From the NCBI RefSeq assembly GCF_018228765.1, contig NZ_CP073695.1, positions 2,837,218 through 2,901,217 of the forward strand: a stretch of 64,000 nucleotides of DNA, given 5' to 3'. The notes below the pieces were generated by a model. It was not told the origin of the DNA, searched no databases, and was given only the letters and a program-made list of their open reading frames with translations. The stretch is from Halorubrum ruber (GTDB lineage: Archaea; Halobacteriota; Halobacteria; Halobacteriales; Haloferacaceae). Positions 58,019 through 63,903 of the stretch are shown here, piece by piece. The translations under genes were made by a program, and so were the position numbers. Each line of letters begins with the position of its first letter. Within the stretch, counting starts at the first letter, position 1.

Positions 58019-58104
58019 CACTATCGAAAACATCCATTGGTCCCCTGCGAAGCTGCCAACAGAGGAACCGCGCGAGTTTTGTGTCGGCCCGCTGAACGGC
58101 GCGT

Positions 58105-59091
58105 ATGCGTATTCTCGTGACGGGCGGGGCCGGGTTCATCGGCGGCCATCTCGCCGAGGCGTTTCTCGACGACGGCCACGACGTGACCGTCCTCGACAAC
58201 CTGGAGCCGTTCTACGCGGAGGGGATCAAACGCCACACCCTTGATGTCCACCGCGAGGTCGCCGAGGGCCGTGCCGTCGACTACCAGTTCGTGGAAGGCG
58301 ACGTGCGGGACCCCGAGACAGTCGAAGCACTCGTCGCTGACGCCGATGTTGTCGTCCATCAAGCCGCGCAGGCGGGCGTTCGTGAGAGCGTCGATAACCC
58401 TCGGAAGGTGACCGATATCAACGTCGATGGGACGGTGAATCTCTTGGAGGCGTCGAAGGAGGCTGACGTGGACCGGGTGATTCTCGCGAGTTCCTCGTCG
58501 GTGTACGGGAAGCCGCAGTCGCTCCCCTACGAGGAGGATCACCCGACCGAGCCGGTGAGCCCTTATGGGGTGACAAAGCTCACGCAGGAACACATGGCGC
58601 GGGTGTATACGGAGCTCCACGGGTTGCCGACGGTGTGTCTGCGCTACTTCACCGTGTACGGCCCGCGGATGCGGCCGAACATGGCCATCTCGAATTTCGT
58701 CTCGCGGTGTGTGAACGGGGAGCCGCCGGTGATCTACGGCGACGGCCAGCAGACGCGGGACTTCACGTACGTGGCCGACGTGGTGGACGCAAACCGGACG
58801 CTGTTAGAATCGGACGCCGCGGACGGCGACGTGTTGAACATCGGGAGCTCGGACAACATCTCGATTCAGAAGTTGGCCGAGACCGTGCGAGATCAGTTGG
58901 CACCCGAATTGGAGATCGAGTACGAGTCCGCGCGGGAGGCCGACGCCGAGCACACACACGCGTCCGTTGAGAAAGCCGGCGAGGTGATCGGCTACGAGCC
59001 CTCGCGGACGATCGCGGAGGGCGTCGGCGAGTTCATCGAGTGGTATCAGGCGAACCGCGAGTGGTACGAGCCGTTGGTGCGGGAATCGTAG
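58105..59091 (+). CDS. NAD-dependent sugar epimerase/dehydratase (GalE-like)
   Basis: A 328-residue extended short-chain dehydrogenase. RILVTGGAGFIGGHLAEAFL gives the NAD-binding GxxGxxG. Catalytic Tyr and Lys are in VSPYGVTKLTQEHMARVYTE near 151. NMAISNFVSRCVNGEPPVIY near 192 is the sugar-nucleotide region, similar to UDP-glucose/glucuronate 4-epimerases. It lies 87 bp after the sugar transferase gene and likely supplies an activated sugar for cell-surface glycan. Exact substrate not settled. Confidence 0.88.
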   Translation: MRILVTGGAGFIGGHLAEAFLDDGHDVTVLDNLEPFYAEGIKRHTLDVHREVAEGRAVDYQFVEGDVRDPETVEALVADADVVVHQAAQAGVRESVDNPRKVTDINVDGTVNLLEASKEADVDRVILASSSSVYGKPQSLPYEEDHPTEPVSPYGVTKLTQEHMARVYTELHGLPTVCLRYFTVYGPRMRPNMAISNFVSRCVNGEPPVIYGDGQQTRDFTYVADVVDANRTLLESDAADGDVLNIGSSDNISIQKLAETVRDQLAPELEIEYESAREADAEHTHASVEKAGEVIGYEPSRTIAEGVGEFIEWYQANREWYEPLVRES

Positions 59092-59192
59092 GGGGCCAAC
59101 GTTCGAGACGAGATCGAGTGTGTCGGTGGGGTAGCAGCGGAACTAGTGTAGAGAGGTCGAACAGCGCTCGCGCCTGCGAGGTGAGCTGATAG

Positions 59193-59366
59193 AGGGCGAC
59201 CGCTACGCGTCACGACGTACCGGTGACCGGCGTCGTGGGGATCCTCCTCCGTGCGTCCGACCGAGGAGAAGTCGACCTCGAAACGGAACTCGACGCGCTC
59301 CGCGAGGCGGGCTTTTGGATCTCGGACGCGCTGTACGAACGCGCGCTCGAGATGGACACAGAGTGA
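59193..59366 (+). pseudogene. Remnant of a DUF3368 PIN-toxin gene
   Basis: The frame after a stop at 59190-59192 reads ATRHDVPVTGVVGILLRASD, then RGEVDLETELDALREAGFWI and SDALYERALEMDTE, ending at 59366. This is the C-terminal third of DUF3368 proteins (VPVxGTVGxLLRAK..., LxxLxxxGFxIS). The catalytic N-terminal part is missing. The listed start has no start codon of its own. A toxin gene once sat between the epimerase and nucleotidyltransferase genes. Confidence 0.65.
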
Positions 59367-59441
59367 GCACCGTCGCTTCCGGCTAGAATACCGTTTGACG
59401 CCAGGGGCAACGTTGAAACGGCCACGCGTGGCGTCTCGCGT

Positions 59442-60164
59442 ATGGACGCGGTCATCCCCGCCGCCGGCCGCGGCAGCCGACTCGGCGAGCTGACGGCGGC
59501 CCGACCGAAGGGACTCGTCGAGGTCGCGGGGCGGCCCCTCCTCGCGCACGTCTTCGAGACGGCGGTCGAGGCCGGGGCCGATGAGCTGGTCGTGATCGTC
59601 GGGTACGAGGCGGCGCAGATCGTCGAGCGGTTCGGCGATGACTTTGAGGGGACTACTATTACGTACGTCCACCAGCGCGAGCGGCTGGGACTTGGGCACG
59701 CGGTCTTACAGGCGGAGCCGCACGTCGAGGGGACGTTCCTGCTCGTGAACGGCGACAACGTCTTCGCGGGGAGCGTTGCGCCCGCGGTTGCGGCTGTCGA
59801 GGAGGCAGACGCCGTGCTCGCGGTCGAAGAGGTGTCGTCTGAGGTCGCGGCGACGACCGGCGTGATCGAGACGGACGAGCGGGGGCGCGTGACGGGGATC
59901 GTCGAGAAGCCGGCCGAGCCGTCGTCGACGCTGGTCACGACCGGGTGTTACGTGCTTCCTGAGGATGTCTTTCACGCGTGTGCGCTGCTCCGGCCGTCGG
60001 CCGAGGGCGAGTACCAGCTGAGCGAGGCCGTGGGCCTGTTGGTGCGGGCGGGGTACGAGGTGGCGACGGTTCGGGTGGGTGAGCGGGTGAACGTGAACAC
60101 GTCGGAAGATATCGAGCGGGCGAGCGAGTTAGTGAATCGACAGTCCAGACGGAACAGGCAGTGA
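59442..60164 (+). CDS. aglF: AglF-like sugar nucleotidyltransferase
   Basis: A 240-residue glucose-1-phosphate uridylyl/thymidylyltransferase-like enzyme. MDAVIPAAGRGSRLGELTAA holds the G-x-G-x-R nucleotide-binding motif and RPKGLVEVAGRPLLAHVFET the catalytic lysine region. FLLVNGDNVFAGSVAPAVAA near 104 gives the metal-binding aspartate. It makes an activated sugar for the N-glycan. The gene follows the epimerase with a toxin remnant between. Which sugar it uses is not settled. Confidence 0.87.
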   Translation: MDAVIPAAGRGSRLGELTAARPKGLVEVAGRPLLAHVFETAVEAGADELVVIVGYEAAQIVERFGDDFEGTTITYVHQRERLGLGHAVLQAEPHVEGTFLLVNGDNVFAGSVAPAVAAVEEADAVLAVEEVSSEVAATTGVIETDERGRVTGIVEKPAEPSSTLVTTGCYVLPEDVFHACALLRPSAEGEYQLSEAVGLLVRAGYEVATVRVGERVNVNTSEDIERASELVNRQSRRNRQ

Positions 60165-60184: not shown

Positions 60185-60853
60185 TTACGTGTTGTTGCTC
60201 CAACGAATCATGTCTTCCCAGAAGTCGCTGAAATGGGTATATAAATTTGCGAAGTAGCACATCGGATGTGTTTCTTCAGTCTCATCGATACCCCAGAGAT
60301 AATCACCGACATCAGCAAGCTCTCCGTTTCCGCGGGGATCAAAGTGTGTTTTGTGAAAGTAAACTCTCATGTATGTTGAGTCAGACTCAGTCTCTTCTCT
60401 GATACTAAGACAGCGATAATTTCCATGTGTGAACTGATTTCGAAGCCCCCAAGCAAACACTAACTTCCTCACAAACGGGGGAAGGGTGGGATCTGCGCGC
60501 TCCGAGCCTCTAACGAAAGTGTCTTTCTCAACCGTTTGATCGACACACGAGTTCAGAAACGGGTGGATCTCTTCGACCAGCGAATAAATCGACGAGAGGT
60601 AGTTGTGGATGTCCGCATAGATGTTCGCTCGAAGTCCCTCTGTATCCGATTGTTCTACGGGATCATAATACACGAACCCGTCCGTGGCAATATCATCACA
60701 GAGCCCGCTAAGACGGGTGAAGTTAATATCAACAATCTGTTTTGAGTACCGAAGACGCTTGATCACCTCTTGCGACGGCGTTCCTGTCGGTCCCTCTGTG
60801 TGGCCCAGTAGCTGATCGATGGAATTAGTGGACCCGCCATTGGTGCCACTCAT
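60185..60853 (-). CDS. HEPN-like putative ribonuclease
   Basis: A 222-residue helical protein of lower GC than its neighbours. ANIYADIHNYLSSIYSLVEE near 75 is a long helix with the HNYL motif seen in haloarchaeal HEPN proteins. VRKLVFAWGLRNQFTHGNYR near 127 contains R-N-x-x-x-H, the catalytic HEPN RNase signature. HEPN proteins cut RNA in toxin-antitoxin and anti-phage systems. The 55-residue HTH-like gene ends 21 bp upstream on the same strand. The end overlaps nothing; it faces aglF. A role as toxin is inferred. Confidence 0.65.
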   Translation of the reverse strand: MSGTNGGSTNSIDQLLGHTEGPTGTPSQEVIKRLRYSKQIVDINFTRLSGLCDDIATDGFVYYDPVEQSDTEGLRANIYADIHNYLSSIYSLVEEIHPFLNSCVDQTVEKDTFVRGSERADPTLPPFVRKLVFAWGLRNQFTHGNYRCLSIREETESDSTYMRVYFHKTHFDPRGNGELADVGDYLWGIDETEETHPMCYFANLYTHFSDFWEDMIRWSNNT

Positions 60854-61092: not shown

Positions 61093-61326
61093 TTATGGTG
61101 GATAAGTGCCTTTCCAGTCGGTTTTGAGGTTTTTCGAGACGAGTGCCTGACACCCCACGGCGTCGAGTGTTCGATACGGGTGACGTTCGCGTTCGAGCAG
61201 GACGCCCTGGCATGAACCCGCGATTCGTACCGCTGTATCGACGTATTTCGGGGGCTTCCGAGTTGGATCGCGTACGGTGGCGATGATAGGGACAAACCTC
61301 GTTTCGTCTGTCTTCGCGGCCGGGTG
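61093..61326 (-). other. Decayed open frame beyond the stop of the small gene
   Basis: In the same frame as the stop at 61327-61329, coding-like sequence continues as RFVPIIATVRDPTRKPPKYV, then DTAVRIAGSCQGVLLERERH and SKNLKTDWKGTYPP, with a stop at 61093. No start codon lies between the two stops. It may be a second gene that lost its start or the 3' part of one broken gene. Family not recognised. Confidence 0.35.
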
Positions 61327-61790
61327 TCAGCGGTCGCGTTCCGTTTCGATCTCGTCTCTAATCGCGAGGACGATCCCGGGGTCGAGATCGAGGCCGTACT
61401 CGTCGTACCGGCCGCCCCTCTCGCCGCGATTCCGGTCGGTGCGTTGGAGGAACCCGATATGTGGAGCTCCGAAAGGGTGTTCTGGATGCTTTTCAGCGTC
61501 GTAAGTGGGTCCACGGCGTGTGAGTCCGCCGCGCGCTCGTACCGGGTTTTGATCGTCTTCGGCCGGGCCGGCGTCGAGCCCCGTTCTTCGAGGGATGCGA
61601 GCGTTTCGAGCAGCAGGTGGGCGTGCTGGATCTGGTCTCGGATTTGGTTGCGTAATCGACCACGCTGGACGAGATCCTGGGCCTCAACGATGTACGAATC
61701 GTCGACGCTGTCGTCGCCGCGCTTCTTCGCCACCTCGCTGTCGGTCCTGAGGTGAGGGTAAGCGGGAGAGTCGGTGGGTGAGCACTCCAC
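61327..61790 (-). pseudogene. Small hypothetical gene with a probable frameshift
   Basis: From 61790 the frame reads DDSYIVEAQDLVQRGRLRNQ, then HAHLLLETLASLEERGSTPA and VDPLTTLKSIQNTLSELHI, all natural. After about 61450 that frame turns to Ser/Thr/Arg nonsense, while another frame reads GFLQRTDRNRGERGGRYDEY and ends LDPGIVLAIRDEIETERDR at 61327. One missing base would join them to about 150 residues. An internal GTG at 61733 (VAKKRGDDSVDDSY) may be the true start. Function unknown. Confidence 0.45.
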
Positions 61791-61834
61791 ACACCTCCGT
61801 GTCGAGTGTTATTACGATATACTTGGCACAGTTA

Positions 61835-62034
61835 GACACACCCAGTACCGAATGAGATTGCTGGTCTCACCCGTTGAGTACACATCGACCGGATATGACC
61901 GTTGATTATCCGTTTGGTGTCGGTCACGCGGGTGGATCGTCGCTGGCGCCACCAAGAGACACACCTCGTACCGAGTGAAACCGATCGTTTGAGTCCCCAG
62001 CGCACAGATGTCACACACCACGCACCGAATGAAA
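61835..62034. repeat. Origin-recognition-box-like repeats downstream of orc1
   Basis: Three copies of an approximately 22-bp motif face the same way: ACACACCCAGTACCGAATGA (about 61836-61855), ACACACCTCGTACCGAGTGA (about 61959-61978) and ACACACCACGCACCGAATGA (about 62013-62032). A fourth, degenerate copy in reverse may lie near 61866. The consensus matches the repeats on the other side of orc1. They are most likely binding sites for the encoded Orc1/Cdc6. Open frames across this stretch are not convincing genes. Confidence 0.7.
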
Positions 62035-62046
62035 GTACTTGATCCG

Positions 62047-63243
62047 CTATTGCCGATCGAGGCCCTTCGTGACGATCTCAGGTGAACGCAGGAGCCGGTG
62101 GACGCGGTAGCTTCCCTCCTTATGCCCACCGCCGGTGTGTTCGCTTTCAGTCACACCGAGAAACGCCTGCTCTTTCAGAAGTCGCTGGACGCGATCATAG
62201 CTCAGCGGAGAGGTATCGACCTCGTCGGTGATATTTGTATACATATCATATACTTCCGCCGTGCGGAACTGCTGACGATCAGTCTGTTCAGTGAGGAGCG
62301 CAAGCGCGCGGAGGATATGTTTGACGTGCGGCGGTTGTCCACTCACGAGTTTCTGGAAACGATTGATTTCTGCTTTCTCAAGCGCGGCATCCACATGCGC
62401 TTCAGTGACGTGTTCGGCCCGCTCCATCTCAGCGAGCCGCCCTGCTTCATACAACATATCGATCGCTTTTCGTGCGTCTCCATGTTCACGTGCTGACAAG
62501 GCCGCTGTTTTCGGGATAACCTCGTCTTGAAGCACACCCTCGGCGAAGGCGTCCCGACGGCGCGTCAAAATGGCCTCCAACTGGCGGGCATCGTACGGAT
62601 CGAACACGAGTTCGTTATCCTGGAGCGACGAATCGACCCGTTCGCTCAACCGTTCTCGGTATTCGATCTTGTTGCTGATACAGATCGCTCCGATGAATGC
62701 GTCGGCTTTCCCACTTTCTTGGGCACGCGAGATGCTCCGTAGCAGTTCATCGCCGTCCAACTTGTCGATTTCATCGAGTATCACGAGAAAGGCATCAACG
62801 TTGGCGTCATCAATCATCTCCCACACGATGTCGCGATAATCTGCTGCGCCAATTCCCTTGCGGGGGATCGACTGTTCGTCAACCGAGTTTTTGACTGTAC
62901 TGTGTAGATCACGGGCCATTTGGCGGCTCACCTGTGTTTCCGTTCCGTAATCCGAACAGTCGATGTACGCGTGAGCGAACATGACGTCATTGTTCTCAGC
63001 TCGTCTCGTGGCCTCGCGGCAGACACACCTTGTAACGAGTGACTTTCCGGTTCCAGTTTTCCCATAGACAATCGTCGTTTCCGGAGGCCCACCTCGGACT
63101 GCCGGAGCGAGGGCACTGCCGATCGCATCGATCTCATCGTCTCTGCCGACCACACGCTCGAGATCGGGAACGTGCCCGACTCGGACCAGTTTTCGATCCC
63201 GAAAGATCTCACCGGTCTCAAAGATATCGCCGCGGTTCGTCAT
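62047..63243 (-). CDS. orc1: Orc1/Cdc6 replication initiator
   Basis: A 398-residue AAA+ initiator. Walker A is TTIVYGKTGTGKSLVTRCVC near 62 and Walker B is AFLVILDEIDKLDGDELLRS near 150. Sensor 1 is FIGAICISNKIEYRERLSER and sensor 2 EHGDARKAIDMLYEAGRLAE. The C-terminal winged helix (about 300-395) would bind origin DNA, ending EGSYRVHRLLRSPEIVTKGL. Length matches haloarchaeal Orc. Repeats on both sides, some in opposite directions around an AT-rich core, point to an origin built on this gene. Confidence 0.93.
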   Translation of the reverse strand: MTNRGDIFETGEIFRDRKLVRVGHVPDLERVVGRDDEIDAIGSALAPAVRGGPPETTIVYGKTGTGKSLVTRCVCREATRRAENNDVMFAHAYIDCSDYGTETQVSRQMARDLHSTVKNSVDEQSIPRKGIGAADYRDIVWEMIDDANVDAFLVILDEIDKLDGDELLRSISRAQESGKADAFIGAICISNKIEYRERLSERVDSSLQDNELVFDPYDARQLEAILTRRRDAFAEGVLQDEVIPKTAALSAREHGDARKAIDMLYEAGRLAEMERAEHVTEAHVDAALEKAEINRFQKLVSGQPPHVKHILRALALLTEQTDRQQFRTAEVYDMYTNITDEVDTSPLSYDRVQRLLKEQAFLGVTESEHTGGGHKEGSYRVHRLLRSPEIVTKGLDRQ

Positions 63244-63265
63244 ACGTGGTCCTGATCTTCAACTC

Positions 63266-63645
63266 ATAAAATACTACCAACCTCGTACCGAGTGAGATAT
63301 ACAGAATAAGTATTCTAGAGTTTCTGAGTCGGCTTTAAGCTGGATTAAATACTGTACCGCTTGATTCTACACACTAGACACCGAGTGAATTTGGCAAAGG
63401 TCGTACTACTAGCAGAGCAATTCGGGTCTTAGTGAAGAGTATGGACGTTTGCGGTCTGTTCACTTCGTGGGAACTCACTCGGTAGAAGGTGTGTCTACGA
63501 ACCTGAAGTCCGGTTGGGGTGTCTAACTGAAGTGGATCACGCCGACTGTGTTGTCCTGTGTCGGCAGGTGTCACTCGGTACGACGTGTGTGACGACGATT
63601 TGACGGTGGTTTCATTTCTCGATTTTACTCGGTGCAAGGTGTATC
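63266..63645. other. Probable replication origin (AT-rich core with inverted ORB-like repeats)
   Basis: Upstream of orc1, two repeats point one way: ACCAACCTCGTACCGAGTGA (about 63276-63295) and ACACACTAGACACCGAGTGA (about 63369-63388). Three point the other way: TCACTCGGTAGAAGGTGTGT (about 63475-63494), TCACTCGGTACGACGTGTGT (about 63571-63590) and TTACTCGGTGCAAGGTGTAT (about 63625-63644). The 70 bp between the first two (about 63299-63366) are AT-rich and would suit duplex opening. This matches the usual haloarchaeal plan: an AT-rich element flanked by inverted ORBs beside orc1. Activity is untested. Confidence 0.7.
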
Positions 63646-63819: not shown

Positions 63820-63894
63820 GAACACTCGACACGGTGGGGTCACATCGGAGGGCATCCTGCCCTCTCTCAAAAAGAACACTCGACATGGTGGGGT
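63820..63894 (+). repeat. Direct repeat resembling a second class of origin box
   Basis: GAACACTCGACACGGTGGGGT stands at 63820-63840 minus one base, and the same motif with a single T for C at 63874-63894. The GGGGT end and ACTCGA centre recall the G-string ORBs of the main haloarchaeal origin type, unlike the repeats near orc1. They may bind another Orc paralogue or belong to a unit beyond the window. From 63646 to 63819 I see only a possible gene scrap ([20 protein letters not shown] near 63680-63760). Confidence 0.4.
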
Positions 63895-63903
63895 AGCGGC
63901 GAA

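Follow-up and report, generated by a model that had tools for sequence, protein, structure and literature searches.

Haloarchaea restrain several replication origins on a single chromosome, and in the literature we searched only a single titration region has been worked out in any detail. The window analyzed here, a stretch of 64,000 nucleotides spanning bases 2,837,218-2,901,217 of one 3.02 Mb contig of Halorubrum ruber, contains an orc1 gene surrounded by ORB-like repeats, and the same genome carries four further orc genes, at 269.6 kb, 400 kb, 1,504 kb and 2,919 kb. The evidence argues strongly that this locus of a Halorubrum-like haloarchaeon is a chromosomal replication origin associated with orc1/cdc6, whether active or dormant. 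The origin module itself is of an already known kind; what is new at this origin is a probably selected ORB inside the coding sequence of the initiator gene.

An intact initiator gene and its repeats

The gene and the nine ORB copies at the locus (three behind orc1, five before it and one within its coding sequence) are as follows.

62047-63243, minus strand: orc1/cdc6 initiator gene, intact, 398 aa, with AAA+, Cdc6 lid and winged helix (profile and structure matches)
61836-61856, plus strand: downstream ORB 1 (pattern and weight matrix)
61959-61979, plus strand: downstream ORB 2, perfect consensus (pattern and weight matrix)
62013-62033, plus strand: downstream ORB 3 (pattern and weight matrix)
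63023-63043, plus strand: intragenic ORB in orc1, codons 67-74 (pattern, matrix, codon conservation)
63276-63296, plus strand: promoter ORB, 33-53 bp before the orc1 start codon (weight matrix, sequence)
63369-63389, plus strand: upstream ORB, beginning 146 bp ahead of the orc1 ATG (pattern and weight matrix)
63474-63494, minus strand: upstream ORB, inverted set 1 (pattern and weight matrix)
63570-63590, minus strand: upstream ORB, inverted set 2 (pattern and weight matrix)
63624-63644, minus strand: upstream ORB, inverted set 3 (pattern and weight matrix)

The orc1 product has the makeup of an Orc1/Cdc6 protein: an AAA+ ATPase with Walker A and B motifs, a Cdc6 lid and a C-terminal winged helix. 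It matched TIGR02928 (E 7.7e-112), contained Cdc6_lid and Cdc6_C domains, and matched by sequence the solved archaeal Cdc6 proteins 2v1u and 2qby (E 8e-50 and 1.4e-44), which we take to be A. pernix and S. solfataricus entries. Its nearest orthologs (97-98% at the amino acid level) belong to Halorubrum amylolyticum and H. halophilum. A phage source for the gene was dropped, as phage records gave no match.

The ORB consensus, TCACTCGGTACGAGGTGTGT, combines a CACTC core with a G-rich end, the same build as known haloarchaeal ORBs, and ends in GGTGTGT where the halophile-specific G-string GGGGT stands. A sequence-only reading of this DNA had listed eight copies of about 20 bp, three behind orc1 and five before it; we recovered all eight, together with the ninth copy at 63023-63043, which that count had overlooked. 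The repeat is highly specific to the locus. A 20-mer search allowing up to three mismatches returned seven matches in the whole 3.02 Mb genome, every one of them at orc1 (~0.16 expected by chance), and none for a reversed control pattern. With a weight matrix the nine ORBs scored 25-33 bits, against 14.2 bits for the next-best site in ~285 kb scanned and 15.2 bits for the best site in a shuffled copy.

An AT-rich core within a conserved geometry

Two further features lie upstream of the gene.

63297-63368, no strand: AT-rich 72 bp (65% AT), candidate duplex-unwinding element (composition, stability)
63266-63273, minus strand: putative TATA box (TATTTTAT), about -27 from the ATG (read in sequence)

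The AT-rich element holds the least stable 60-mer of the 57-64 kb region. It is flanked by two ORBs in the same orientation, at -146 and -53 (approximate positions of their starts, counted from the window's orc1 start codon), and is adjoined by the junction at which the upstream ORBs invert; in the interval that separates the inward-facing ORBs (63390-63473), AT content is 52%. The earlier picture, in which repeats point toward each other across an AT-rich core of about 70 bp, needs one nuance: the ORBs that flank the core are in the same orientation. ORBs flanking orc1, with inverted sets upstream, are the layout of an orc/cdc6-associated origin. This geometry (ORB at -146, AT-rich 72-73 bp, ORB at -53, intragenic ORB at +200) was conserved among orthologs, in which the gap between the -146 and -53 ORBs was 72-73 bp long and 58-79% AT where measured, and which also carry inward-facing ORBs farther upstream of that gap.

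The promoter ORB is separated from the putative TATA box of orc1 by 2 bp, and binding at -53 should therefore affect orc1 transcription. The repeats might also be purely regulatory, serving an Orc-type transcription regulator and no origin; Sulfolobus Orc1-2 is a non-initiator regulator of this sort (PMC9738581), and one ORB here abuts the orc promoter. However, clustered inward-facing ORBs and an AT-rich core beside an orc gene make up the pattern behind haloarchaeal origin predictions (PMC3528665), and the repeat is found nowhere else in this genome. We consider a purely regulatory role improbable.

Linkage of the ORB family to its Orc across relatives

Scanning a single genome for each species yielded 15 relatives, and whole-genome searches added more. 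The same ORB family flanks orc in all relatives examined at 61-98% identity, among them members of Halorubrum, Halobellus, Halosimplex, Natrinema, Natronolimnohabitans, Haloterrigena and Haloquadratum as well as plasmid pHTUR04. ORB sequence is thus linked to Orc family across genomes, as in orc/cdc6-associated origins. The distribution of the orc1 family is patchy, covering 26 of 392 genomes of the order.

Within its own genome the origin can be compared with the ancestral haloarchaeal origin, oriC1-cdc6A. The two are alike in ORB architecture, with a CACTC core and a G-rich end, but the ORB is TTCCACTCGAAACAAAGGGGTG at oriC1 and TTCACTCGGTACGAGGTGTGT here, and the oriC1 orc is only 30-39% identical to orc1 in matching segments. 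The window's origin is not of the oriC1 family: the oriC1 ORB stands as an inverted pair at ~272 kb, next to the conserved Cdc6A gene at 269.6 kb. The suggestion that a repeat unlike the common ORB marks a probably separate, Orc-specific origin is well supported, both by the linkage of ORB and Orc across genera and by the difference from this genome's oriC1 ORB. A further orc (genome 2,919,104-2,920,198; L008:9104-10198) has an ORB family of its own (GACACACCACTATTTCGAGTGAA) on both flanks and lies 18.6 kb from the window's origin, within the same low-GC region.

Repeats standing away from any orc, which the sequence-only reading had named as evidence against an Orc-specific origin, do occur in a few genomes, mostly as origin remnants or as distal sites in Haloprofundus, and they do not undo that interpretation. 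The Haloprofundus sites are isolated single copies with 0-1 mismatch to ACACACCNCGTACCGAGTGAA (~0.0003 expected per genome). They lie to either side of the chromosomal origin that belongs to a 57% related Orc, most of them at a distance of 70-170 kb (for example G080:C1:206073, 293074 and 442612, with orc at 362054; loci L069 and L073-L083). Their intergenic positions are orthologous in 4-5 species, and the sites stand out as conserved islands where the DNA around them has diverged. A role as distal sites that bind the initiator, in the manner of titration, is possible.

A probably selected ORB in the Walker A codons

The codons covered by the intragenic ORB (67-74) encode K-S-L-V-T-R-C-V of the Walker A motif, the most conserved motif of the protein, so that a match to the repeat might arise as a by-product of protein constraint and codon bias, with no binding site involved. 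The codons themselves speak against this. In 12 of 12 ORB-bearing orthologs (61-98% identity) TCA, CTC, GTT and TGT are invariant and the arginine codon is only ever AGG or CGG, whereas orthologs lacking the site show free codon variation at these positions. Codon 71 specifies Thr or Ala in genes with the ORB, and mostly Ser in those that lack it.

Synonymous conservation, scored against each gene's own codon use, led to the same result. The intragenic ORB is the most strongly conserved stretch of orc1 by this measure in nine diverged ORB-bearing genes (z 14). Reruns on all orthologs and on held-out ones removed the bias that comes from picking ORB-bearing genes: the site ranked first of 365 windows scored in 17 orthologs unselected for the ORB (z 13) and first of 376 in 22 held-out orthologs, most from other families (z 14.1), and it kept that rank once near-duplicates were taken out of the held-out set (z 13.8). 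Orthologs without the intragenic ORB showed no excess synonymous conservation at those codons. A matrix built without the intragenic copy recovered it in 13 of the 22 held-out orthologs, with identical codons and more than 15 bits. With z values of 10-14 across selected, unselected and held-out sets, we regard the by-product explanation as very doubtful. A second, weaker peak of synonymous conservation was seen in the held-out set at codons 205-212 (SLQDNEL).

Because the intragenic ORB tops synonymous conservation, in held-out orthologs included, DNA-level selection on it is likely, across several families. The site is absent from a sizeable minority of orthologs, including the Natrinema, Natronolimnohabitans, pHTUR04 and Haloprofundus relatives, and is therefore non-essential and a feature of part of the family. 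It stands at a fixed distance from the promoter ORB and is probably kept by selection. Co-occurrence of the two sites looked positive (both in 21 cases, neither in 12, one only in 8 and 4) but was dropped as evidence for looping: the Haloprofundus Orc proteins have N-terminal extensions, so that their true promoter ORB falls outside the range that was counted, and the sequences are related.

The role of the intragenic ORB would be autoregulation or titration. Our literature search, made mostly among freely available papers, found no description of an ORB inside an orc coding sequence. On balance we lean toward a broader proposal: that archaeal initiator genes belonging to this Orc family carry a selected Orc-binding site in their own Walker A codons, one DNA segment serving both as ATP-binding loop and as feedback or titration site for the protein it encodes, and that the single Haloprofundus ORBs 70-170 kb away form a datA-like distal control layer. 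With an ORB within the initiator coding sequence, silent recoding alone could test initiator autoregulation while the protein stays unchanged.

Remains of other origins around the module

Outside the nine ORBs lie traces of other orc/ORB families, and farther left one copy of a duplication.

61151-61172, plus strand: orphan ORB of a second family (ACCCCACCGTGTCGAGTGTTC) (weight matrix, family scan)
61790-61811, plus strand: orphan ORB, second family (weight matrix, family scan)
63820-63841, minus strand: orphan ORB, second family (weight matrix, family scan)
63874-63895, minus strand: orphan ORB, second family, near the end of a ~2.1 kb shared cassette (weight matrix, family scan)
61336-61751, minus strand: decayed C-terminal part of a second orc, with frameshift (Cdc6_C E 4.4e-6; tblastn E 1.6e-23)
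58062-60144, plus strand: left copy of a direct duplication, sugar epimerase and aglF (sequence comparison)

The region had been described as lower in GC and as carrying decayed genes; its GC content of 55-60%, compared with ~70%, and the orc remnant at 61336-61751 bear out both statements. Among 170 genomes of the family, the second ORB family clusters around another intact orc type (loci L054 and L056-L060), which shares 54-56% identity with this genome's orc at 2,919 kb. The exception is L067, where it stands beside a third orc type, the type to which the dead orc belongs. In L067 (G053:C4:76629-76985) the outer ORB is repeated nine times in tandem, nearly perfectly and with a spacing of ~42 bp, at 600-950 bp upstream of the orc. 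The Haladaptatus orc that is nearest to the dead orc was rejected as owner of the orphan ORBs, having no second-family ORB near it.

Comparison with relatives delimits the module. H. amylolyticum and H. halophilum share with it a segment (86-88%) that extends from about 61813 to about 63929, so that its limits fall near the outer ORBs. Two loci (L059, L061) have the usual orc partner of the second ORB family at the corresponding site, with the inner ORBs persisting without their orc. In two others (L063, L064) all that is left of orc1 between the inner ORBs is a truncated gene or 29 codons. Homologs of aglF adjoin the locus in several of these genomes, and related Halorubrum genomes have a different orc swapped in at the same aglF-linked site. 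An economical reading would be that orc/ORB cassettes of ~2 kb have repeatedly been exchanged at an aglF-linked hot spot where a different origin was already in place. The layers left by other families would then form a readable record of origins replacing one another.

The sequence-only reading had suggested that the origin may have arrived with an integrated plasmid or element. A whole plasmid integrated by a single crossover between the aglF/epimerase copies would leave the direct duplication seen here, whose second copy lies beyond the window (genome 2903080-2904109 and 2907046-2907749, ~90% identical), and the patchy distribution of the orc1 family, its plasmid-borne relatives such as that on pHTUR04 and the low GC of the region are in keeping with such an event. 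Yet no att site was identified, and neither the ORFs tested near the origin nor the 5.7 kb that separates the copies yielded an integrase, a partition gene or other plasmid backbone; the DNA shared with H. halophilum and H. amylolyticum stops near the outer ORBs and not at the duplication; several alternative orc cassettes use the same aglF-linked site; and the stretches L018 and L019 have the cassette without the duplication, in other surroundings. Cassette exchange fits these data better, and we think plasmid integration unlikely.

Several neighboring genes were also recorded. A 222-aa ORF between aglF and the origin (60185-60853) had no Pfam or NCBIfam match. A 472-aa archaeal-type ATPase, assigned by reading its sequence, lies immediately past the outer ORBs (L007:11143-12561); it is missing at the equivalent place in H. 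amylolyticum (L018), and matching DNA is present in G150 (L061). Farther on (genome 2,903,080-2,909,662; L007:13080-19662; family names likewise from reading the sequence), an IS200/IS605-type tnpA/tnpB pair and a PIN-like fragment separate the second epimerase from the second aglF, and an ABC transporter follows.

A model for initiation and restraint

In the mechanism that we propose, the Orc protein would bind its own ORB family, and the ORBs at -146 and -53, together with the farther inverted ORBs, would position it around the 72-bp AT-rich element. There, by analogy with known archaeal origins, the duplex would open and MCM would be loaded. Initiation may be limited by the three downstream ORBs together with the intragenic one at +200, through repression of orc, titration of Orc, or both, and the promoter ORB may act as a brake too, by either route. 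An older origin locus probably received the module by insertion or by exchange, and the orphan ORBs and dead orc of other families would be what remains around it.

Firing cannot be told from sequence, because dormant haloarchaeal origins share this anatomy (PMC4595724), as those of Haloferax mediterranei do. Cumulative GC skew peaks near 2.91 Mb, between the window's origin and the next module, but was rejected as evidence of firing, since it is weak, the opposite of a bacterial-type minimum, and confounded by gene direction. The origin may instead be dormant or decaying, complete but silent, its ORBs kept for self-regulation of orc while oriC1 or others do the work; the orc at 2,919 kb, with its own ORBs, could be the one used. 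Such silence would suit the low-GC, decaying surroundings and the orc1 remnants (truncated, or 29 aa) left between intact ORBs in L063 and L064. Set against it are an intact orc1 and an ORB geometry and AT-rich core conserved across genera. We rate dormancy as a real possibility, at somewhat less than even chances.

Comparison with known origins

Haloarchaeal origins as described in PMC3528665 have ORBs in one or both of the intergenic regions next to orc, on both sides in several of them, and five predicted orc-linked origins of H. hispanica were confirmed by autonomous replication. The locus resembles these orc/cdc6-adjacent origins in its orc gene, its family-specific flanking ORBs, its AT-rich element and its Orc/ORB linkage. 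It differs in having an ORB in coding sequence, of which we found no mention in the text consulted. The same paper reports two ORB types at one orc in H. walsbyi and H. lacusprofundi; unlike in those cases, the second family here is traceable and accompanied by remnants of another orc.

In Haloarcula hispanica, an ORB-rich region downstream of cdc6E (oriC2D) acts negatively on its origin, probably by titration (PMC3936714). The likeness to oriC2-cdc6E/oriC2D is one of layout: extra ORBs, at 61836, 61959 and 62013, lie directly downstream of the initiator gene, three here as against 11 there, and a promoter and an intragenic ORB are added here. Finally, in Haloarcula a single variable location on the chromosome has seen repeated gain, loss and disruption of origins (PMC4441112). 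The aglF-linked site resembles such hot spots in its apparent repeated gain and loss at one variable place, with the difference that successive occupants here appear to have left layers, orphan ORBs of another family surrounding the present orc.
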